The position numbers and the translations under genes were made by a program. From contig JAERRP010000248.1 of assembly GCA_016735415.1 (NCBI GenBank), forward strand, positions 1 to 11,664: a DNA stretch of 11,664 nt, read 5' to 3'. The notes under the pieces are model-generated. The model was not told the origin of the DNA. It saw only the letters and a program-made list of their open reading frames with translations, and made no database searches. This document shows positions 1 through 10,123 of this stretch, piece after piece (the first letter of the stretch is position 1; each line of letters opens with the position of its first letter). This stretch comes from Desulfobacterales bacterium. Its GTDB lineage: Bacteria; Desulfobacterota; Desulfobacteria; Desulfobacterales; UBA5852.

Positions 1-3000
1 GCGGACGTGGACCGCTCGGCCCTCGATGGCCTGTCGGCCGCCCCCCTGTTGATCGTGAACACCCCCGATGAATGCGTTATCGGGGGCCACGCCCCCCGGG
101 TGGCGGCGGTCCTGCAGAAATTGCAATGCGAGGCCATTGACCTCGAGGGCACCGTGGCGGTCCACTGTGATGCCGTTCAGCCGGTGGCCGACGCTTATCT
201 GGAACTGCATCGTTTTACAACCCGACCGCCCCAGGGCGTCCGGTATTACAGCTGCGCCGCAGAGCGGGCCATCACGCTCACCCGTGCGTCGGCCGCCCAA
301 TCCCTCCTGAACCAGGCCTTGAAAGGGTTCGATTTCTCCCGCACCGTTCGCCAGGCCTACCGGGACGGCGTGCGCATCTTTCTGGAAATGGGGCCGCAGG
401 CCTCCTGCACCCGCATGATTGGCCGGATTTTAGGCGATCAACCCCATCTGGCGGTATCCACTTCACATCGGGAAGATGACGACGGCTTTGCGATTGCCCG
501 AACGCTTGCGGCCCTGGCCGCGGAAGGCATCCGCTTCGATCTGGACGCTTTTTTTCCCCTGTCGAAACGACCGGAACCCCGTTCGCCCCGTGAGTCCCGA
601 ATCACCGCTGATGCCCCCCTGAAGCGAATCGTCAACGGCGGCCGCCCCATCAATCCGCCACCGGCATTGTCCCGGCCGAATGACGCCCAGCCGTCCACCC
701 CGACCGAAGACGGCCCGGCGATCAAACGGATGACGCCCGGGGTGCAAAAACGACCCTTGCATACCGCCGGATCAGTCGGTGAAACCGCGCCGGCCCGGGA
801 TCGTCATCCGATGCTGGATCAATCAGAGACCTTGCTCCGGCAGATGAATGCCCACCTGAAAGAGACTGCCCGGGCCCATCACCGCTATCTGGATATGACC
901 TCCGAATTGACGCGTGAATATGCCGCCACCTTCGACCTGCGCAACCGATTGCTGGGACAACTCGCCGGCGCGCCCGACCGTCCAACGGACGTCTCTCCTG
1001 ACGCCCGGCGGGAAGCGGCCCCGGCCGACACGGACAGGATCCAACCGGTCTTCTCGCGTGAAATGTGCATGGAGTTCGCGGTGGGATCGGCCGCCAGGGT
1101 ATTGGGACCTGAATTTGAAGCCCTCGACGGTTATCCGGCCCGGGTCCGTCTTCCGGACGAACCGCTGATGCTGGTGGATCGGATCATGCACATCGAAGGC
1201 ACCCGGGGGTCCCTGGGACCGGGACGCATCGTCACCGAACACGACGTCCGGCCGGGGGCCTGGTACCTGGATGCCGATCGCGCCCCGGTCTGCATTTCGG
1301 TTGAAGCCGGACAGGCCGACCTCTTTCTCTGCAGCTACCTGGGGATCGATCTCGAAGTCAAAGGCCAGCGCACCTATCGGCTTCTGGATGCCGCCGTGAC
1401 CTTTCACCGCGGCCTGCCGCGCCCCGGTGACGTGATTCGCTACGAAATCACCATCGAAAAGTTTATCCGCCAGGGGGCCACCTGGATGTTCTTCTTCCAA
1501 TTCGACGGATACATCGGGGATACCCATCTGATCACCATGCGCGACGGCTGCGCCGGATTCTTTACGGCCGAGGAAGTGCGCCAGTCCGGCGGAATTCTGC
1601 TCACGGAAAAAGAAACCTCGGCGGTGGTCGTCCGACGCCCCGCGAACTGGACGCCACCGGTGACCATGCCGAAGGAACACTACGACGATGCGGCCATCGA
1701 GGCCCTGCGCCGCGGGAATGCCGCCGCCTGTTTTGGCGATGCCTTCCGGGGAATTACCATCCCGCCCGCCCTGCGGCTTCCGGGCGGACGCCTGCGCCTG
1801 CTGGATCGGGTGCTTGAAATCGATCCGAGCGGCGGGCGCTATGGTCTGGGACAAATTCGTGCGGAGGCCGACATCCACCCGGATGACTGGTTTCTGACCT
1901 GCCATTTCGTGGACGACATGGTCATGCCCGGAACGCTGATGTACGAATGCTGTGCCCATACCCTGCGCATTTTTCTCCAGCGCATGGGCTGGATCAGCGA
2001 CCACGAGGGAGTCTGCTACGAACCGGTGGTGGGCCATCGCAGCTTGCTGAAATGTCGCGGGCCGGTGACAGCGGCCACGCAGCGTGTCACCTATGAGGTC
2101 GAGATCAGCGAAATCGGTTTCAATCCGGCGCCCTGTGTGCGGGCCGATGCCCACATGTATGCTGACGGCCACCGCATTGTTTTGTTCAAAGACATGTCCA
2201 TGCAGATGAGCGGCATGACCCGGGAACGCCTGCTGGCTTTCTGGGACCCGCAGCGGCCTTCCGAAAAAGTGAGCACGGAACCACCCGCCGTCTTCTCCCG
2301 GGATCAAATCATCGAGTTCGCCTACGGCCGGCCCTCGAAGGCTTTCGGTCCCCCTTACCGGCCGTTTGACCGCGACCGCTTTATCGCCCGCCTGCCGGGA
2401 CCGCCCTTTTCGTTTATCTCCCGGGTCCCCCGGATTGAACCGGCGCCCTGGGAGCTCAAGCCGGGCGGGTGGGTGGATATCGACTGGGATATGACGCCGC
2501 ACGACTGGTATTTCCGTGCCAACCGCAGCGCGGGCATGCCGCTTTGCATCCTGATGGAAATCGGCCTGCAGGCCTGCGGCTTTCTGGCCTCCTACCTGGG
2601 CTCCGCCCTGCACAGCGACAAGGACCGGCGCTTTCGCAATCTGGACGGCAGCGCCACACTGAAGGCCAACGTGATGCGCGACCGGGGGCCGGTTGCAGCC
2701 CGGGCCCGCCTGCTGTCGTCTTCCGCGGCCGGCGACATGCTGATCGAACAATTTGCCTTTGAGGTCTTTCAGGCCGACCAGATGGTCTACGAAGGCCGGA
2801 CCTCTTTCGGTTTTTTTACCGAAGCCGCTCTGGGGCGCCAGGTCGGCCTGGGCCCGGAAGACGGTTCCGTGGCCTGGAAGCATTGGCGGGCGACGGCCGC
2901 ATCGACCCCGGGGATACTGGATGATCTGGCCCCGCGCACGCCGCACGATTCCGGTGAAGATCCAAGGCCTGACTTCCGCCTGCCCGCCACCGCCCTGCGC

Positions 3001-3423
3001 ATGATCGACCGCATCGAGATTTTTCTGCCCCGGGGGGGTGACCACGGACTGGGCTACCTGCTGGGTACCAAGTCCGTTGATCCCCGGGAGTGGTTCTTTG
3101 CGGCCCATTTTTTCCAGGATCCGGTATGCCCGGGCTCTCTCGGCATCGAATCCTTTTTCCAGCTGCTGCGCCACGCCGCCCGCGAGCGCTGGCCGGATCT
3201 GGCCGCCACCCACATGCCCCTGATCCGCACCGCTGAACCCCACACCTGGCGCTACCGCGGCCAGATCCTGCCGCATAACAAACACATCGAAGTCGAAGCA
3301 ATGATCCTCGAAGTCGAAGACGGCCCCGAACCGGGGCTGCGCGCGGACGGCTACTTGAAAGTCGACGGACTTTCCATATATAAGATGCAGAATTACGGCC
3401 TGCGTCTGGTGAAACGGAGATAA
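1..3423 (+). CDS. pfaC: PfaC-type PUFA/secondary-lipid synthase subunit, C-terminal part: acyltransferase end plus four FabA-like dehydratase hotdogs (5' partial)
   Basis: The frame is open from base 1, so the true start lies upstream; residues are counted from the GTG at 7. Residues 1-150 are the end of a malonyl/acyl-transferase domain: the VHCDAVQP block holds the probable catalytic His53, and FLEMGPQASCTRMI is the usual C-terminal motif. The GHSxG serine must lie upstream. A Pro-rich linker (about 185-260) and a helical stretch (265-320) follow. Four FabA-like hotdog domains come next. Domains 1 (near W419) and 3 (near W834) lack the catalytic His. Domain 2 (CHFVDDMVMPG, His633) and domain 4 (AHFFQDPVCPG, His1034) have it. 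This matches the dehydratase tetradomain of PfaC-type synthases, which introduces the double bonds. The acyltransferase before the dehydratases resembles the KS-CLF-AT-DH-DH order of myxobacterial Pfa3. The protein ends after the fourth hotdog, with no acyltransferase or thioesterase-like release domain. KS, CLF, ACP, KR and ER parts are presumably upstream. oleA follows after 9 nt. Confidence 0.85.
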   Translation, partial: ADVDRSALDGLSAAPLLIVNTPDECVIGGHAPRVAAVLQKLQCEAIDLEGTVAVHCDAVQPVADAYLELHRFTTRPPQGVRYYSCAAERAITLTRASAAQSLLNQALKGFDFSRTVRQAYRDGVRIFLEMGPQASCTRMIGRILGDQPHLAVSTSHREDDDGFAIARTLAALAAEGIRFDLDAFFPLSKRPEPRSPRESRITADAPLKRIVNGGRPINPPPALSRPNDAQPSTPTEDGPAIKRMTPGVQKRPLHTAGSVGETAPARDRHPMLDQSETLLRQMNAHLKETARAHHRYLDMTSELTREYAATFDLRNRLLGQLAGAPDRPTDVSPDARREAAPADTDRIQPVFSREMCMEFAVGSAARVLGPEFEALDGYPARVRLPDEPLMLVDRIMHIEGTRGSLGPGRIVTEHDVRPGAWYLDADRAPVCISVEAGQADLFLCSYLGIDLEVKGQRTYRLLDAAVTFHRGLPRPGDVIRYEITIEKFIRQGATWMFFFQFDGYIGDTHLITMRDGCAGFFTAEEVRQSGGILLTEKETSAVVVRRPANWTPPVTMPKEHYDDAAIEALRRGNAAACFGDAFRGITIPPALRLPGGRLRLLDRVLEIDPSGGRYGLGQIRAEADIHPDDWFLTCHFVDDMVMPGTLMYECCAHTLRIFLQRMGWISDHEGVCYEPVVGHRSLLKCRGPVTAATQRVTYEVEISEIGFNPAPCVRADAHMYADGHRIVLFKDMSMQMSGMTRERLLAFWDPQRPSEKVSTEPPAVFSRDQIIEFAYGRPSKAFGPPYRPFDRDRFIARLPGPPFSFISRVPRIEPAPWELKPGGWVDIDWDMTPHDWYFRANRSAGMPLCILMEIGLQACGFLASYLGSALHSDKDRRFRNLDGSATLKANVMRDRGPVAARARLLSSSAAGDMLIEQFAFEVFQADQMVYEGRTSFGFFTEAALGRQVGLGPEDGSVAWKHWRATAASTPGILDDLAPRTPHDSGEDPRPDFRLPATALRMIDRIEIFLPRGGDHGLGYLLGTKSVDPREWFFAAHFFQDPVCPGSLGIESFFQLLRHAARERWPDLAATHMPLIRTAEPHTWRYRGQILPHNKHIEVEAMILEVEDGPEPGLRADGYLKVDGLSIYKMQNYGLRLVKRR

Positions 3424-3432
3424 AACCAATCC

Positions 3433-4473
3433 ATGCGCTATGACAATGTCATCATCGCCGCCATCGGCTACGAGCTGGCCCCTAACGTGGTCACGGCGGA
3501 AGATCTGGAAGCACGCCTGGCGCCCCTTTATGATGCGCTGCACCTCAAACCCGGCCAGATGGAGCAATTGACCGGTATCCAGGAAAGCCGCTACTGGGAC
3601 CCGGACTTCAAGCTCTCGCAAGGCGCCATCCGCGCCGGCCGCAAGGCCCTGGAAAAAGCCGACCTGGACGCCGCGCACGTCGGCATGCTGGTATACGGCG
3701 CCGTCTGTCGCGAAAATCTGGAGCCGGCCACGGCCTGTGCTGTGGCCGACGGCCTGGGTATCGGACCCGATGCCCAGGTTTTCGATATCTCCAACGCCTG
3801 TCTGGGGATTTTGAACGGGATGGTTCAGGTGGCCAATGCCATCGCCCTGGGGCAGATCCGGGCCGGTCTGGTGGTTGCATGCGAATCCTGCCGCCAGATC
3901 GTCGACAGCACCATCGCGCGCATGCTCCAGGCCGGCAGCATGGACGTCTTCAAGCGATGTGTGGCCACCCTGACCGGCGGTTCGGGCGCGGCGTCGGTGT
4001 TGCTCACGGATGGATCGTTCGGCCATCAGGGACGCCGTCTTCTGGGCGGCGTGATCCGCAATGCCGTCCGGCATCACCGCCTCTGCACCTGGGGGCCGGA
4101 TACGGGCATTCCCGCCACGGCTCCCCACGTCATGAACACGGATTCGGTCGGCGTTCTCCAGAACGGGGTCAAACTCGGCCGCGAAACGTTCCGGGCCCTG
4201 CGCCGGGAACTGGCCTGGCATGATGACCAGCCGGACAAGGTCGTCTGCCACCAGGTGGGGTCATCGCACCAGAGCGCTGTTCTGGAGGCCATCGGCCTGC
4301 CCGCTTCCCGGGATTTCACCACCTTCCGCTATCTCGGCAATATCGGCACGGTATCCGTCATTGTAACGGCGGCCATGGCCGACGAAAGGGGTTTTCTCCA
4401 ACCGGGGGACCAGGTGGGTTTTCTGGGGATCGGCAGCGGGCTGAACTGCCTCATGCTGGGCGCGGACTGGTAA
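3433..4473 (+). CDS. oleA: OleA, thiolase-fold acyl-CoA head-to-head condensing enzyme (3-oxoacyl-ACP synthase III family)
   Basis: OleA catalyses the non-decarboxylative Claisen condensation of two fatty acyl chains to a 2-alkyl-3-ketoacid, the first step of long-chain olefin synthesis. The 346-residue protein has normal family length. The nucleophile is Cys123 in ISNACLGILNG, with His273 in VVCHQVGSSH and Asn303 in YLGNIGTVS completing the thiolase-type site. Glu97, in CRENLEPATA, lies 26 residues before the cysteine. That is the same spacing as the Glu117/Cys143 pair known in Xanthomonas OleA, where the Glu serves the partner subunit. This favours OleA over ordinary FabH. Immediate oleB, oleC and oleD neighbours make the call firm. 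The ATG at 3433 is preceded by GGAG at 3416-3419, a rather long 13-nt spacing. The 9-nt gap after the PUFA-synthase gene suggests co-transcription and shared supply of acyl chains. Confidence 0.92.
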   Translation: MRYDNVIIAAIGYELAPNVVTAEDLEARLAPLYDALHLKPGQMEQLTGIQESRYWDPDFKLSQGAIRAGRKALEKADLDAAHVGMLVYGAVCRENLEPATACAVADGLGIGPDAQVFDISNACLGILNGMVQVANAIALGQIRAGLVVACESCRQIVDSTIARMLQAGSMDVFKRCVATLTGGSGAASVLLTDGSFGHQGRRLLGGVIRNAVRHHRLCTWGPDTGIPATAPHVMNTDSVGVLQNGVKLGRETFRALRRELAWHDDQPDKVVCHQVGSSHQSAVLEAIGLPASRDFTTFRYLGNIGTVSVIVTAAMADERGFLQPGDQVGFLGIGSGLNCLMLGADW

Positions 4474-4474
4474 C

Positions 4475-5401
4475 GTGATCGATATCCGTCCATACCGGCA
4501 TCTCTACCCTTTCCGCTCGCACTACCGGAACATCGGCGGCTTTCAGATCCATTATCTGGACGAAGGTTCCGGCGATCCGGTGATCATGCTGCACGGCAAT
4601 CCCACCTGGTCCTTTTACTACCGTCATCTGGTAGGAATCCTGGCCCCCGCCTGTCGAACCATTGTCCCGGACCACATCGGCTGCGGCCTTTCGGAAAAAC
4701 CACCGGTCGCTGAATATCCGTACCGCCTGGCACGCCGCGTGGCCGATCTCGAACTGCTGCTGGAATCTCTGGAGATCCACCGCAACGTCAGCCTGGTCGT
4801 ACACGACTGGGGCGGTATGATCGGCCTGGTGTGGGCCCTGCGCCATATCGACAAGGTCAAACGACTGGTGATAACGAATACATCCGGGTTTCTGCCGCCC
4901 GACGGCAAATCGCTTCCCTGGCGACTCAAGCTTATCCGCAATCTCACGGCCCTGGGGGCACCGGCGGTGCTGCACGGCAACCTGTTTGCCCGGGCGGCGC
5001 TGGTCATGGCCCCCCGCAAACGCCTGGCCCGGGACGTCCGCCGGGGCCTGATTGCCCCCTACGATTCACCATCGCACCGCATCGCCACCTTCAAATTCGT
5101 CCAGGACATCCCCCTGACGCCCCGTGACCCCAGCTACGCCCTGGTTGAAAGCGTCGACCGCAACCTGAAGCGGCTCGCGGCGATTCCCATGCTCATCCTG
5201 TGGGGACTCAACGACTTTGTCTTCGATTCCGATTATCTGGCCGAATGGCGGCGGCGTTTTCCCCGGGCCGAAGTTCACACCTTTCCCACAGCCGGCCATT
5301 ATCTGCTGGAAGACGAACCCGCCTCCGTGAGCGCCGCCATCAAGGACTTCTTCAGGCGTCATCCGATGGCCTCCGAGACCGCCCCGGGAAGAACGCCCTG
5401 A
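4475..5401 (+). CDS. oleB: OleB, alpha/beta-hydrolase beta-lactone decarboxylase
   Basis: OleB splits the cis-beta-lactone made by OleC into a cis-olefin and CO2. The 308-residue protein has a haloalkane-dehalogenase-like alpha/beta-hydrolase fold. HGNPTW at residues 40-45 supplies the oxyanion-hole Asn and Trp. The nucleophile is Asp111 in VVHDWGG, an aspartate as in dehalogenases and OleB rather than a serine. Asp247 (WGLNDF) is the likely acid and His275 (TAGHYLLEDE) the base. On sequence alone it could pass for a haloalkane dehalogenase, but its place between oleA and oleC decides for OleB. The start is the GTG at 4475, one base after the oleA stop. No strong ribosome-binding site is visible, so translational coupling to oleA is likely. 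Its stop overlaps the oleC start by one base (TGATG). In some bacteria OleB and OleC are a single fused protein; here they are separate. Confidence 0.9.
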   Translation: MIDIRPYRHLYPFRSHYRNIGGFQIHYLDEGSGDPVIMLHGNPTWSFYYRHLVGILAPACRTIVPDHIGCGLSEKPPVAEYPYRLARRVADLELLLESLEIHRNVSLVVHDWGGMIGLVWALRHIDKVKRLVITNTSGFLPPDGKSLPWRLKLIRNLTALGAPAVLHGNLFARAALVMAPRKRLARDVRRGLIAPYDSPSHRIATFKFVQDIPLTPRDPSYALVESVDRNLKRLAAIPMLILWGLNDFVFDSDYLAEWRRRFPRAEVHTFPTAGHYLLEDEPASVSAAIKDFFRRHPMASETAPGRTP

Positions 5402-7080
5402 TGGAAAAACTTCTTTCCGCCGACAAGGCCGAGCGGGTCAACATCGCCTACCGCCTGCAGCATACAGCGGCCCGGATGCCCTCCAAACGGGCCGTGGTAT
5501 ATCCCGCCGGACACGACCGCCGGGGCCGCATCGCTTACAGCCATCTGACCTTCGAGCAGCTCAACTGTGAGTCCGACGGTCTGGCCCGGGGTTTGGAAAA
5601 GGCGGGTGTGGGACGCGACACCAAAACCGTGCTGATGGTCAAACCGGGCATTGAATTCTTCGTATTGATTTTCGCCCTCTTCAAAGTCGGCGCGGTACCG
5701 GTGGTGGTGGATCCCGGCATGGGCCTAGGACGCATGCTGCGCTGCCTGGAATCCACGTCACCGCAAGCCTTTATCGGTATCCCGGCCGCCCATGTCGTTC
5801 GGGTTTTCTGCCCCCGATTCTTCCGCAGCGTCCAGACTTCCGTCACCGTGGGCCGGCGGCTGTTCTGGGGAGGCGCCACCCTCGAGGGCCTGATCCAGCG
5901 CCCCTGGCAGCCCTATGCGCCGGCGCCGACCCAGCGCCATGAAACCGCCGCCATCCTTTTCACGACCGGCAGCACCGGCCCGGCCAAGGGGGTTGTTTAC
6001 ACCCACGGGAACTTCGATGCCCAGATCCAACAGATCCAGGATCACTTCGATATCGGTGATGATGAAATCGACCTGCCCACTTTCCCCCTCTTTGCCCTTT
6101 TCGATCCGGCCCTGGGAATGACCGCCGTGATTCCGGACATGGATCCGCGCAAACCGGCCCTGGTCGATCCCGAGAAAATCATCAGGCCCATCATCGACCA
6201 TGGGGTTACGAACATGTTCGCCTCCCCGGCCCTTTTGAATCGTGTCGGCCGCTTCGGGCGCCAACACCATCTCCGGCTGCCGTCCCTGCGACGGGTCGTG
6301 TCGGCCGGGGCCCCGGTTTCACCGGCCAACATCGCCCAGTTCGTTTCCATGCTCAGCGAGGAGGCCGAAGTGCACACCCCCTACGGGGCGACCGAAGCCG
6401 TCCCCATCGTTTCCATCGGCAGCCAAGAAATTTTATCCGAAACACGCCCGTTGAGTGAGCAGGGCTACGGCATGTGTGTCGGGCGGCCATTGCGGCACAC
6501 CGAGATTCGGATCGTCCGCATCTCGGACGATCCGATCCCCGCCTGGGATGACGACCTTCAGGTGGTGGCGGGTGAAATTGGCGAAATCATTGTACGGGGC
6601 GATCTGGTAACGCACCACTACTACCGCAACCGTCAGGCTGATGCCCGGACCAAAATAAAAGATGGCGATACGATCTGGCACCGCATGGGTGATCTGGGCT
6701 GGCAGGACCACAAAGGCCGCATCTGGTTCTGCGGCCGTAAAAACCATCGGGTGATCAGATCGGATGGTGATATGTACACCATCCCCTGCGAGGCCATCTT
6801 CAACAACCACCCCCGGGTCCTCCGGAGTGCCCTGGTGGGCATCGGCGCCCCGCCGGACCAGGAACCGGTGATCTGCATCGAATGTCATCCGGATACACCG
6901 GCAGGCAACTCAGACCGCCTGGCGAGGGAGCTTCGGGAACTTGCCGCCGCCAACCCATTGACGACCGCGATCCGGAAAGTACTCTTCCATCCGGGCTTCC
7001 CGGTGGATATTCGCCATAACGCCAAAATTTTTCGGGAAAAACTGGCGCGCTGGGCCGAAAAAGAGATTCGGGAGAAATGA
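5401..7080 (+). CDS. oleC: OleC, ATP-dependent beta-lactone synthetase (AMP-forming ligase superfamily)
   Basis: OleC adenylates the 2-alkyl-3-hydroxyacid from OleD and closes it to a beta-lactone. The protein has 559 residues if it starts at the ATG at 5401, which overlaps the oleB stop. The frame stays open back to 5200, but that part is antiphase to oleB and does not resemble the family, and MEKLLSADKAER is a normal N-terminus. Adenylate-forming motifs appear in order: P-loop FTTGSTGPAKG (187-197), YGATEAVP (about 328-334), the ATP-ribose aspartate in RMGDLGW (Asp431), the hinge CGRKNHR (about 445-450), and the C-terminal catalytic lysine in HNAKIFREK (Lys542). The P-loop and GATE motifs fit the OleC class better than an acyl-CoA synthetase, and oleB and oleD neighbours confirm it. 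oleD begins 1 nt after its stop. A weak purine-rich ribosome-binding site (GGGAAGAA) lies just before the chosen ATG. Confidence 0.92.
   Translation: MEKLLSADKAERVNIAYRLQHTAARMPSKRAVVYPAGHDRRGRIAYSHLTFEQLNCESDGLARGLEKAGVGRDTKTVLMVKPGIEFFVLIFALFKVGAVPVVVDPGMGLGRMLRCLESTSPQAFIGIPAAHVVRVFCPRFFRSVQTSVTVGRRLFWGGATLEGLIQRPWQPYAPAPTQRHETAAILFTTGSTGPAKGVVYTHGNFDAQIQQIQDHFDIGDDEIDLPTFPLFALFDPALGMTAVIPDMDPRKPALVDPEKIIRPIIDHGVTNMFASPALLNRVGRFGRQHHLRLPSLRRVVSAGAPVSPANIAQFVSMLSEEAEVHTPYGATEAVPIVSIGSQEILSETRPLSEQGYGMCVGRPLRHTEIRIVRISDDPIPAWDDDLQVVAGEIGEIIVRGDLVTHHYYRNRQADARTKIKDGDTIWHRMGDLGWQDHKGRIWFCGRKNHRVIRSDGDMYTIPCEAIFNNHPRVLRSALVGIGAPPDQEPVICIECHPDTPAGNSDRLARELRELAAANPLTTAIRKVLFHPGFPVDIRHNAKIFREKLARWAEKEIREK
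7071..7074 (+). promoter_or_regulatory. Ribosome-binding site of oleD
   Basis: GGAG lies 7 nt before the ATG at 7082, inside the last codons of oleC. It supports the chosen oleD start and ties oleD translation to the oleC end. Confidence 0.6.
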
Positions 7081-7081
7081 T

Positions 7082-8146
7082 ATGGCGTCCCTGAACCTGT
7101 CGGATAAACCTGTCCTGGTAACCGGTGGTGGCGGTTTTCTGGGTGGTGCCATTGTGCGCCTGCTTCTTGGAAAGGGAATCCGGGTACGCAGTTTTTCCCG
7201 TCGGCACTATCCGGCGCTTGATGCCCTGGGGGTGGAACAGGTTCAGGGCGACATCGCCCATTTGGATGCCGTCCTGGCCGCCACCGCCGGGGTCGACCTC
7301 GTTTTTCACGTGGCGGCCAAACCGGGTATCTGGGGAGACTACCAGGATTATCACCGTCCCAATGTCATCGGAACGGAGAATGTCCTGCAGGCCTGCCGCG
7401 AACATGGTGTGCACCACTTAGTGTATACCAGTTCCCCCAGCGTTGTCTTCAACGGCCAGGACATGGCCGGGGTGGACGAGTCCGTCCCCTACCCCGGTCA
7501 TTGGGATGCCCACTACCCCCAAACCAAAGCCCTGGCCGAACAGATGGTATTGCAAGCCGGCCGCCGGGATCTCTCCACCATCGCCCTTCGGCCCCATCTC
7601 ATCTGGGGGCCGGGCGACAATCATCTGGCCCCGCGGATTATCCGGCGTGCCAAACGCCTCCGCAAAATCGGACCGGGCCGCAACCGGGTGGATACGATCT
7701 ACATCGACAATGCGGCCCATGCCCATCTGCTGGCGGCCGAAAACCTGATCGCCCGCCCGGAGCTTTCGGGCCGGGTCTATTTTATCAGCCAGGACGAACC
7801 GATCGTTCTCTGGGAGATGATCGACGCCATCCTGGCAGCGGCGGATCTTCCACCGGTCAAACGCTCGCTTTCGGCCCCGGCGGCCCGATGTATCGGCACC
7901 CTGTCGGAATGGCTCTACCGGACATTTCGACTGCCGGGCGAACCCCCGATGACCCGTTTCGTGGCCGACGAGCTGGCCAGCGCCCATTGGTTTGACATCG
8001 GTGCCGCCAAACGGGATCTGGGCTACCGACCGCTTGTATCGACCCAGGAGGGGCTGCATCGTTTGAGACATTGGCTTCAAACGAAAAATAAGCCCACTGA
8101 CGCATCAGACACCAATCAGGTCGAGGCCAATCCGCGATTCCCATAG
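7082..8146 (+). CDS. oleD: OleD, NAD(P)H-dependent 2-alkyl-3-ketoacid reductase (extended SDR, 3-beta-HSD/epimerase type)
   Basis: OleD reduces the ketoacid from OleA to the 2-alkyl-3-hydroxyacid that OleC uses. The 354-residue protein is an extended short-chain dehydrogenase/reductase. The dinucleotide-binding motif is TGGGGFLGG (GxxGxxG at 15-21), the catalytic Thr/Ser is in YTSSPSV (116-118), and the YxxxK pair is Tyr145/Lys149 in HYPQTKALAEQ. Later segments such as RPHLIWGPGD and the DTIYIDNAAHAH block match the 3-beta-hydroxysteroid dehydrogenase/epimerase family to which OleD belongs. Alone it could only be called an NAD-dependent epimerase/dehydratase; directly after oleABC the OleD call is strong. 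It is the last ole gene; the stop at 8144-8146 is followed by 44 nt and then the PocR gene. The last 25 or so residues, after LRHWLQ, look like a variable tail. Confidence 0.9.
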   Translation: MASLNLSDKPVLVTGGGGFLGGAIVRLLLGKGIRVRSFSRRHYPALDALGVEQVQGDIAHLDAVLAATAGVDLVFHVAAKPGIWGDYQDYHRPNVIGTENVLQACREHGVHHLVYTSSPSVVFNGQDMAGVDESVPYPGHWDAHYPQTKALAEQMVLQAGRRDLSTIALRPHLIWGPGDNHLAPRIIRRAKRLRKIGPGRNRVDTIYIDNAAHAHLLAAENLIARPELSGRVYFISQDEPIVLWEMIDAILAAADLPPVKRSLSAPAARCIGTLSEWLYRTFRLPGEPPMTRFVADELASAHWFDIGAAKRDLGYRPLVSTQEGLHRLRHWLQTKNKPTDASDTNQVEANPRFP

Positions 8147-8177
8147 CGGCCTGGTTGGACCAATCAACCCTTATTCC

Positions 8178-8184
8178 GGGAGAG
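8178..8184 (+). promoter_or_regulatory. Ribosome-binding site deciding the start of the PocR gene
   Basis: GGGAGAG ends 6 nt before the ATG at 8191, with its GGAG core 8 nt away. It fixes the start at 8191; the earlier in-frame TTG at 8155 has no comparable signal. Confidence 0.6.
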
Positions 8185-8190
8185 CACTAC

Positions 8191-8709
8191 ATGAAACTGA
8201 CCGATTTACAACCGCTTGAAAAATGGGCTGAACTGGAAAAGGCTATCCATCGGAAATCAGGCCTGCGTTCACGGGTCTACGATGTCGATGGGGTGGGCAT
8301 TACCGACAAAACAGAGCCCGCCAACAAGCTTTGTCCGGAAATTAGAGCAACGTCCAAAGGTTTGACCTTTATTTGCGCCGTGGCGCATCAGAATCTGGCG
8401 GCCATGGCCCGGAACACCCGCAAACCCGTGATCGAGGAATGCGATGCCGGTCTGATCAAGATTGTCGTGCCGATTTTTGTCGGTGATGAATTCGTCGGGG
8501 CCGCCGGCGGTTGCGGTCTTCTGATGGCCGACGGCGAAGTGGATGACTTCATGATCAATAAAACCACGGATCTGCCCGAAGACCGTATTGCCGCCCTGAT
8601 TGAAGATTTGGGCACGATCACCTCGGCACAGGCGGCGGAACTGACCGCTTTTATCGAGCGCGAAATCCAGCGCGTGATTGAGGCGTTTCGGGCGGGACGA
8701 AAATACTGA
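8191..8709 (+). CDS. Free-standing PocR-domain sensory protein
   Basis: The 172-residue protein is almost entirely one PocR domain, the PAS-related ligand-binding domain first described in the propanediol regulator PocR. Recognisable pieces are the N-terminal helix and GLRSRVYDVDGVGITD, the CAVAHQNLAAMA stretch (Cys62, His66), IEECDAGL (Cys84), and VVPIFVGDEFVGAAGGCGLL (Cys108). A fourth cysteine is Cys48 (LCPE). There is no DNA-binding, kinase or other output domain, and no signal peptide, so it is probably a cytoplasmic sensor that works through a partner. A C-terminal helix (about 145-170) may mediate dimerisation. It lies 44 nt after oleD with its own ribosome-binding site and could be co-transcribed with the ole genes. 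PocR domains have been predicted to sense simple hydrocarbon derivatives; a link to the olefin pathway is my inference. Its 3' end is overlapped by the opposite-strand chimeric ORF. Confidence 0.75.
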   Translation: MKLTDLQPLEKWAELEKAIHRKSGLRSRVYDVDGVGITDKTEPANKLCPEIRATSKGLTFICAVAHQNLAAMARNTRKPVIEECDAGLIKIVVPIFVGDEFVGAAGGCGLLMADGEVDDFMINKTTDLPEDRIAALIEDLGTITSAQAAELTAFIEREIQRVIEAFRAGRKY

Positions 8710-9004
8710 ATCCGATCTTGAGCACCTTACGCGCCGAAAAACCGGTGATCTTCTCGATGGCCGGGTTGATATAGACCATTTTAACTTCCTGGCAACGTCC
8801 TTTTTCCCACACGGACACATAGGGGGCGTCAATGCGATCGGCATAATGATCCCAACCCTCATCAGCATGCCGGACCGTGATCTGAAACCGATAGCGGTTT
8901 TCTCCCATCGGTACGGCTTCAACCGCTTCCACGTCAGCCTCCCCGGCCCAGGTGGTTCCCGCCGCTAATAACATCCAGGCCAGCGTCATGATGCGCAGAT
9001 TCAT
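8651..9004 (-). CDS. Chimeric, probably decayed small secreted-protein gene fused in frame to a PAS-domain fragment
   Basis: The 117-residue reading frame has three parts. Residues 1-20 form a clear signal peptide (a hydrophobic stretch ending TTWAG). Residues 21-57 belong to a small periplasmic family of unknown function, recognised by its VRHADEGWDHYADR motif; members normally continue with roughly 60 more residues. From residue 58 the sequence switches to a PAS-domain start, visible as VYINPAIEKITGFSARKVL (residues 77-95), which breaks off near residue 95-99. The rest is antisense of the PocR gene up to a chance stop. Both recognisable parts are truncated, and a PAS domain behind a secretion signal with no membrane anchor makes little sense. 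A deletion or recombination scar is the likely origin. A good ribosome-binding site (AGGA at 9013-9016, 8 nt before the ATG) suggests the start is still functional. It lies 67 nt after the membrane-protein gene. Confidence 0.55.
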   Translation of the reverse strand: MNLRIMTLAWMLLAAGTTWAGEADVEAVEAVPMGENRYRFQITVRHADEGWDHYADRIDAPYVSVWEKGRCQEVKMVYINPAIEKITGFSARKVLKIGFSIFVPPETPQSRAGFRAR

Positions 9005-9010
9005 GCTCGA

Positions 9011-9018
9011 TTTCCTTT
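9011..9018 (-). promoter_or_regulatory. Ribosome-binding site of the chimeric secreted-protein ORF
   Basis: Read on the minus strand this is AAAGGAAA, with the AGGA core 8 nt before the ATG at 9004. It supports that start. Confidence 0.5.
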
Positions 9019-9071
9019 CCGTTCGGCTTTATCCGAAAGCAGCTCATAAATGTGGTGGGGAGTGTTCGTCT

Positions 9072-9899
9072 TCACGGCGATTGACTTTTGAATTTTTCGC
9101 CGGGCGGCATTTCTCCGTCGCCTTCGCGCCAGGCCACGAGTCGCGCCGGATCGCGTTGATCATCCAGTCTTCTTGGGGTCTGGCCGTGTTTATACGCCAG
9201 TTCCAGGCGATGTTTCTCCAGTTCGGTCCGGCTTTCGATGGATTTGCGGGCCAGGAGATATCGCAGGTAAATCACCCATGTCAGCAGGCCCAGTGAAACC
9301 GCGGCCGCAATGATGAAAAACCACTTGTAGCGGATAAGCGTGTCGATTCCGGCCTGACTGATATGGACGATGAAATTGGGGACCACCCAATAAGTCATGA
9401 TACCCATCAGCACCAGAAAGCCGATGATGAAAATATTATAGCGGCTGATACGCACCAGGAAACGTTCAAGCATCGAAGCATCGGCGGAGGGACTGAGGGC
9501 CTCTTCGCTTTCTTTGAGTTTATCGCCGTAAAAAATAGACAGATAGGCCTTGACCACGAAAGCAAACAACAGGATGCCGCCGACCGGCAAGCCGAAGGCC
9601 GCCACGAACCAGGCCCGGAAGGGAAAAGGAATCTCCCGGGTGTGCAGTTTGAGCTGGTATTGCGCGATCGGACCAAAATTCTGCTCGAAATAGTATTTGT
9701 CGAACTGACTGAGATTCCGGCCATCGGACTCATAAATCACTTCGCCCGTACTCGTCATGACCTGGATGACGGACTGACGCCCCGATTTCATGGCGGCCAG
9801 CACGAATATTTCGAGTTCGATCAAAAACAGGCCGACCGCGATCACGATAAAAAGAGTCCGGTTTTCCCTGATGATGGCCATGAGGGTTTTTTTTTGCAT
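9072..9899 (-). CDS. Unrecognised four-helix integral membrane protein
   Basis: I do not recognise this 275-residue protein. Hydrophobic segments at about 15-36, 97-122, 155-179 and 192-213 indicate four transmembrane helices. The basic N-terminus (KK, RENR) suggests it begins in the cytoplasm. Residues 37-95 would then form a periplasmic domain (containing MTSTGEVIYESDGRNL), 123-153 a cytoplasmic loop, and 214-275 a charged cytoplasmic tail. Residues 218-236 of the tail are rich in Glu, Arg and Lys and may be helical. The single anchored extracytoplasmic segment loosely recalls sensor proteins, but no HAMP, kinase or GGDEF output is present, so I assign no function. The start ATG at 9899 has no clear ribosome-binding site and is followed at once by nine A residues on the coding strand; Met7 (codon at 9881-9879) is an alternative start. 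Base composition looks less GC-rich than in the ole operon. Confidence 0.65.
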   Translation of the reverse strand: MQKKTLMAIIRENRTLFIVIAVGLFLIELEIFVLAAMKSGRQSVIQVMTSTGEVIYESDGRNLSQFDKYYFEQNFGPIAQYQLKLHTREIPFPFRAWFVAAFGLPVGGILLFAFVVKAYLSIFYGDKLKESEEALSPSADASMLERFLVRISRYNIFIIGFLVLMGIMTYWVVPNFIVHISQAGIDTLIRYKWFFIIAAAVSLGLLTWVIYLRYLLARKSIESRTELEKHRLELAYKHGQTPRRLDDQRDPARLVAWREGDGEMPPGEKFKSQSP

Positions 9900-10123
9900 T
9901 TCAATGACCGTTTGGTTTTAGGGATCGCTCAATTTTGATGAACGCGTAAAAAGTCACCCCGATACCGGCATCTCCGGGCCGCCATCGCCATGGCGCCGTC
10001 AAGCTCGGCACAGGCCCGATTTTCATATCACAAGCATCGTGCGGGACACAAGCAGGGCTCTTTGACGGGTATTGACCGGCGGTCGTGACCCGAAGGTCCT
10101 GGGGGCTGCTTCAAATAAGCGGA

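Follow-up and report, generated by a model that had tools for sequence, protein, structure and literature searches.

The closest described relatives of the gene cluster studied here join a Pfa-type polyunsaturated fatty acid (PUFA) synthase to the olefin-forming enzymes OleABCD. In Geobacter bemidjiensis Bem, pfaD, A, B, C, oleA, B, C, D and pfaE lie in tandem, and the organism makes hentriacontanonaene, a C31:9 hydrocarbon (PMC4882568). The Type I secondary-lipid synthase, of the G. bemidjiensis type, has a pfaBC fusion; ole genes, frequently linked, were reported for 44 of 80 secondary-lipid genomes, and the products of the Type C and Type K synthases were uncharacterised (PMC3098273). The ole genes can also lie away from pfa, depending on the host (PMC6463001). 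Here we analyse contig JAERRP010000248.1 (assembly GCA_016735415.1) of a Desulfobacterales bacterium, a stretch of 11,664 nucleotides referred to as the window, in which the 3′ part of a pfaBC-type gene runs into oleABCD. We consider it likely that the window holds the 3′ half of a pfa–ole supercluster, in which chains made by the Pfa synthase would pass to OleA and then to OleBCD to become a long polyene olefin, the C31:9 type being the most likely product. A sequence-only reading of this DNA had remarked that similar clusters might already be known, and the tandem genes of G. bemidjiensis (PMC4882568) and the adjacent operons of Photobacterium profundum (PMC6463001) bear this out. The pfa–ole cluster is known as a kind; what we add is the scale of its linkage in one order and a variant whose PfaBC has no acyltransferase.

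The window shares with G. bemidjiensis the direct passage from pfa to oleABCD and a strictly anaerobic host (PMC4882568). Judged from the published description rather than from Geobacter sequence, it differs in that its relatives have varied genes between pfaA and pfaBC. Moreover, whereas G. bemidjiensis has pfaE, the clusters of the 11 relatives searched have no phosphopantetheinyl transferase (PPTase) match, and a PocR-domain gene often follows oleD. The Type C synthase of Desulfatibacillum alkenivorans is a KS-CLF-AT-DH2 fusion, the PfaBC order of the window's relatives, and is hosted by a sulfate reducer, as is Type K (Desulfococcus oleovorans; PMC3098273). In P. profundum SS9 and Shewanella a PUFA synthase likewise feeds OleA, and the SS9 pfa and ole operons are adjacent; unlike in the window, pfaB and pfaC are separate genes and SS9 has two operons with pfaT between them (PMC6463001).

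The pfaBC–oleABCD gene run

Gene order, domain content and motifs were read directly from the window. Gene 1 (1..3423), open at its 5′ end with 1140 amino acids visible, is followed on the same forward strand by oleA (3433..4473), oleB (4475..5401, GTG start), oleC (5401..7080, ATG start) and oleD (7082..8146). A 9-nt gap separates gene 1 from oleA, 1 nt separates oleA from oleB and oleC from oleD, and oleB and oleC overlap by 1 nt (TGATG), so that the order, strand and tight junctions first proposed hold. The four ole genes are separate, with no OleBC fusion. A scan for promoters and terminators found neither kind of site between the genes of the run, a result that is uninformative for this organism (promoter-like sites in the window, 2, shuffle mean 3.2; terminator-like sites, 13, shuffle mean 8.7, s.d. 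3.2).

FabA-like hotdogs make up the last ~800 residues of gene 1 (Pfam FabA, 255.7 bits; cut-off 23). Three stretches pass individually, and a full-length relative (L004) shows four. The motifs HFVDDMVMPG and HFFQDPVCPG mark two hotdogs with the His that alternate with two lacking it, the pattern expected of two fused FabA-like pseudo-dimers; we read the region as four FabA-like hotdogs forming two predicted dehydratase/isomerase pairs. The first ~190 residues match polyketide-type acyltransferases over region 17–187, every score falling under its curated cut-off (polyketide synthase acyltransferase region, 48.3 bits; MdcH, 41.0; PfaA, 19.0). Identity to the near relative L001 is 71% over the acyltransferase and 76% over the DH region, and full frames in relatives have the domain order KS-CLF-AT-DH. 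Because its visible part opens with the end of an acyltransferase, gene 1 is a PfaBC-type fusion: the tetra-hotdog of the sequence-only reading is real, but its assignment to a stand-alone PfaC subunit is not.

The predicted ketosynthase, CLF and acyltransferase nucleophile of gene 1 would lie off-window, and we judge its acyltransferase to be probably PfaB-type from relatives. There, motif II (GYSxG, with Tyr replacing His) reads GYSLG where the column aligned and GYSIG in one row; the Shewanella PfaB motif is GYSMG (PMC12895367). Gene 1 itself carries a motif-III-like VAVH at residue 52 (nucleotide 154), which fits xAxH but departs from the published motif of prokaryotic PfaB, [NT]A[IM]H[ST] (PMC12895367). 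The ketosynthase Cys is kept in 24 of the 25 relative loci with the column visible. In L001 an Arg replaces it (DAARA), which had hinted at loss across the window's clade. We rejected that idea, since the loci with Cys include L116 of the close relative G001, and the Arg is therefore an oddity of one metagenome-assembled genome (MAG). In L005 (genome G003; 2785–9960), PfaBC is split over two frames with acyltransferase matches in both, a frameshift that stems from misassembly or from decay of the domain.

All motifs sought in the four ole genes were found and the four frames are open. OleA passes the curated model PRK09258 (453.8 bits; cut-off 285) and aligns over its full length (9.1e-61) with solved chain 3fk5, which is listed as a 3-oxoacyl synthase and which we take to be X. 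campestris OleA. Cys123 and Glu97 are in register with that chain, and the Cys/Glu/His/Asn active site is present, Glu, His and Asn having active-site roles in OleA; oleA is the predicted gene for a head-to-head acyl-condensing thiolase. OleB is a haloalkane-dehalogenase-type alpha/beta hydrolase with motifs HDWGG and GHYL whose best NCBIfam match (171.3 bits) is below the cut-off of 241, and it takes the name of putative beta-lactone decarboxylase from its position. OleC is an AMP-binding enzyme (PRK09274, 735.5 bits; cut-off 478), the predicted olefin beta-lactone synthetase, and OleD, with motifs GGGGFLG and YPQTK, is the predicted 2-alkyl-3-oxoalkanoate reductase of the short-chain dehydrogenase/reductase type. 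For both, the best specific matches, extending over nearly the full length, are to NCBI's OleC and OleD equivalog models, which are named for the Xanthomonas and Shewanella types and whose cut-offs are not reached (scores below).

Linkage and upstream synthase genes in relatives

Using OleA alone as query against genome contigs of 84,980 species, we recovered 45 loci, the closest of which (L001–L003; OleA 84–85%) are from Desulfobacterales MAGs and point to an uncultured member of that order as the most likely source of the window. One locus, L026, belongs to a cultured relative, Desulfatitalea alkaliphila. In 35 loci a synthase DH region lies upstream of oleA; 34 of these regions end no more than 304 nt from the oleA match, and the remaining one ends 560 nt away. 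The other ten loci are L016, which has its synthase on a different contig, and nine of planctomycete type, in which OleA identity is 41–46%. In a sample of 194 genomes from the order of G003, OleA (at least 50% identity) was present in 122, a count that leaves out two further genomes with ~100-residue fragments. In 84 of these 122, pfaBC lies upstream on the same strand; its DH match stops a median of 56 nt short of oleA, and 83 of the 84 fall within 1 kb. Recurrence in 35/45 loci and 84/122 genomes puts the arrangement beyond chance, and the search for conserved synteny suggested by the sequence-only reading thus returned pfaBC–oleABCD repeatedly. One genome scored as a miss at a contig edge, G001, nonetheless shows the end of pfaBC at its locus L002.

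Six genomes (G126:C49, G044:C52, G102:C254, G111:C15, G146:C1 and G202:C51) have frames of only 1407–1587 amino acids directly upstream of oleA, matching the first dehydratase pair alone. The second pair is matched on another contig in G102 and G044, and stops fall inside the matched stretch in G044 and G202.

The remaining subunits are present in the relatives. PfaD is above its family cut-off in all 30 relatives, compared with one of 14 control genomes (three match). The PfaA family is matched in 30/30 relatives at 1.3e-236 or better, 20 of them above cut-off, and in 11/14 controls, none above it. In G001, G002, G003, G006, G012 and G022, pfaD, pfaA and pfaBC follow one another in one direction on one contig, so pfaD and pfaA do lie upstream in relatives, where the sequence-only reading had proposed to look for the other synthase genes; in G009, pfaD–pfaA lies downstream of the ole genes instead. 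The relatives' PfaA copies that we examined carry 2–3 carrier motifs (LGIDSIK). Only 9 nt separate pfaA from pfaBC in G022, and in others several genes intervene: a DacA/YbbR-like gene (G001), PD40 (L004), an ADP-ribosylglycohydrolase and T2SSC (G006) or a hybrid kinase (G012). Together, the pfaBC–oleABCD synteny and the upstream pfaD and pfaA of relatives support the synthase-to-hydrocarbon line that had been proposed.

A PPTase search of 11 relatives gave matches in 10, none within the pfa–ole stretches, and we discarded this enzyme as a cluster member. Between pfaD and pfaA in G002, G006, G012 and G025 lies a recurrent reverse-strand gene of ~190–200 amino acids (for example, L110 4762–5367, −), with an N terminus like KFY.NRELA.KL.I and WKRWSREFLP; the L110 copy has no Pfam match, and the gene is possibly a regulator.

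Proposed pathway, probable product and the acyltransferase

In the proposed pathway, a polyunsaturated acyl chain would grow on the carrier domains of PfaA through the oxygen-independent action of PfaA, PfaBC and PfaD, with the PfaBC hotdogs setting the double bonds by dehydration and isomerisation. OleA, probably encoded on the same transcript, would take two chains straight from the carrier domains and condense them head to head. OleD would then reduce the keto acid, OleC close the beta-lactone and OleB remove CO2, leaving a long polyene. Co-transcription, direct hand-off, chain length and product are predictions from gene arrangement and domain content. The window's gene order is consistent with published work, in which the acyl-ACP (acyl carrier protein) of the Pfa synthase was argued to be the OleA substrate, a 16:4 intermediate being condensed; OleBCD finish the 31:9 hydrocarbon, a 31:8 ketone appears without them, and Shewanella pealeana Pfa plus OleA yielded that ketone in Escherichia coli (PMC6463001).

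Several observations weigh against this pathway. OleC is under the equivalog cut-offs (NF045786, 610.7 versus 900; a second model, 595.7 versus 850), as is OleD (NF042422, the best, at 416.9 and another at 413.4, versus 580). One promoter-like site, at chance frequency, falls within oleB ~100 nt 5′ of oleC. In 38 of the 122 OleA genomes pfaBC was not found beside oleA, some of these being contig ends, and because G133, G072, G182 and G091 carry the two genes on one contig but widely separated, the linkage is not obligatory. P. profundum, despite its adjacent operons, had no detectable polyene (PMC6463001). Finally, the acyltransferase may act in the release of PUFA rather than in this pathway.

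This last point underlies the better-surviving alternative, that the synthase mainly makes membrane PUFA or another secondary lipid, with OleABCD as a side stream or acting on ordinary acyl chains and the linkage reflecting shared regulation or transfer. The window's PfaBC keeps its acyltransferase, relatives' copies carry the PfaB motif GYSxG, and PfaB is reported to be the terminal acyltransferase, needed beyond C18 (PMC12895367). Of the 69 genomes that combine a long PfaBC (defined below) with an acyltransferase, nine have no close OleA, and Shewanella makes eicosapentaenoic acid (EPA) as well as the C31:9 hydrocarbon (PMC6463001). However, the pfaBC–oleA adjacency is tight, recurs in 84/122 genomes and is kept in L032 and L034 despite oleC lying elsewhere, and the only chain that OleA is reported to condense in bacteria with a PUFA synthase is the Pfa-derived 16:4 (PMC6463001). 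We therefore regard this alternative as unlikely, while noting that both outputs, olefin and PUFA phospholipid, are possible because the acyltransferase of the fusion belongs to a kind implicated in completing or releasing PUFA. Less probable still is that the end product is a ketone or other OleA product, or that the cluster is silent or degraded: L032 and L034 have oleA adjoining pfaBC but lack oleBCD there, and L005 and L001 have the split acyltransferase and the Arg for Cys described above, but in the window each of the four ole frames is open and has its motifs, and the genomes of L032 and L034 (G020 and G022) each carry an oleC elsewhere, on which ground we rejected these two loci as a ketone pathway. 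L032 and L034 are also sisters on the DH tree (100/100) with similar gene order after oleA, yet are labelled Alphaproteobacteria and Phycisphaerae; one of the labels is probably wrong.

The acyltransferase itself is not constant among relatives. We considered the 91 genomes whose PfaBC frame reaches 1700 amino acids or more and whose DH match has at least 50% identity, ten of them having a two-piece or partial DH match; from the domain lengths, such a frame should span the acyltransferase. The six genomes with shorter frames beside oleA are outside this count. A PfaB-type acyltransferase was present somewhere in 69 genomes and absent from 22, absence meaning no match anywhere in the genome at E 1e-25 and 40% identity; loci without it include L004, L017, L022, L024, L033, L037 and L045, and G002 is one such genome. 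A looser search (E 1e-5) of ten of these 22 genomes and G023 gave one match each, at 23–28% identity, in ten genomes and none in G024, and seven of the ten matches fall in the PfaA match, the PfaA search not having included G179, G185 and G140. Positive controls (G006, G007 and G025) scored 3.2e-118 or better, and G001 and G026, in which PfaBC is cut by contig ends, had acyltransferase matches of 26–28% only. As many relatives are MAGs, the absence of a gene from any single genome is weak evidence.

On a tree of 58 DH regions (38 with an acyltransferase, 13 without and 7 undetermined), the state 'without' needs 7 changes, at least 5 of them on well-supported branches, although bootstrap support is not fully settled and the direction, loss or gain, is undecided. 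OleA is kept in 20/22 acyltransferase-free and 60/69 acyltransferase-bearing genomes (Fisher P = 1.0), so a tie between acyltransferase loss and OleA was rejected; the domain is apparently dispensable in OleA-bearing genomes. OleA needs only a 16-carbon chain, and acyltransferase-free systems may therefore be dedicated hydrocarbon lines. More tentatively, and less likely than not, Desulfobacterales Pfa–Ole lines may have repeatedly dropped (or gained) the PfaB-type acyltransferase, with OleA off-loading the chains and the acyltransferase-free synthases acting as dedicated hydrocarbon machines unable to complete or release PUFA of the length of EPA or docosahexaenoic acid (DHA). No acyltransferase-free PfaBC beside ole genes was found in the literature searched, mostly papers outside subscription; the variant beside OleA is possibly new.

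The PocR gene, neighbouring frames and biological context

Beginning 44 nt past oleD, a stand-alone PocR-domain gene (8191..8709, +; PF10114, 55.6 bits; cut-off 23.9) encodes 172 amino acids with four Cys and is probably the last gene of the run, the recognised genes beyond it lying on the opposite strand. The region past oleD could be assessed in 25 relatives, those in which oleD is nearly complete and the contig runs on for 700 nt or more; a PocR match lies there in 13 (L002, L004, L005, L008, L012, L017, L022–L025, L029, L033 and L045), at a distance of 9–266 nt in 12 and of 1190 nt in one. With PocR homologues in 114 of the 194 sampled genomes and a place after oleD in those 13 relatives only, PocR was dismissed as a general ole partner. 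PocR has been proposed as a sensor of simple hydrocarbon derivatives, and the protein might sense or bind the Ole product or an intermediate. Further on, a membrane-like protein without a Pfam match is encoded at 9072–9899 (−); a similar N terminus occurs downstream of the ole genes in G003. A short open reading frame at 8651–9004 (−) overlaps the end of the PocR gene; it begins like a signal peptide, matches PAS weakly and only in part (20.7 bits; cut-off 22.9), and may be a remnant or no gene.

Among anaerobic sediment bacteria of one order, the PUFA-synthase-to-hydrocarbon line is commonly found, and polyunsaturated hydrocarbons may be widespread among their lipids. Relatives that lack the acyltransferase provide a natural experiment, one that could tell the part of the synthase required for free PUFA from the part that is enough to feed OleA.

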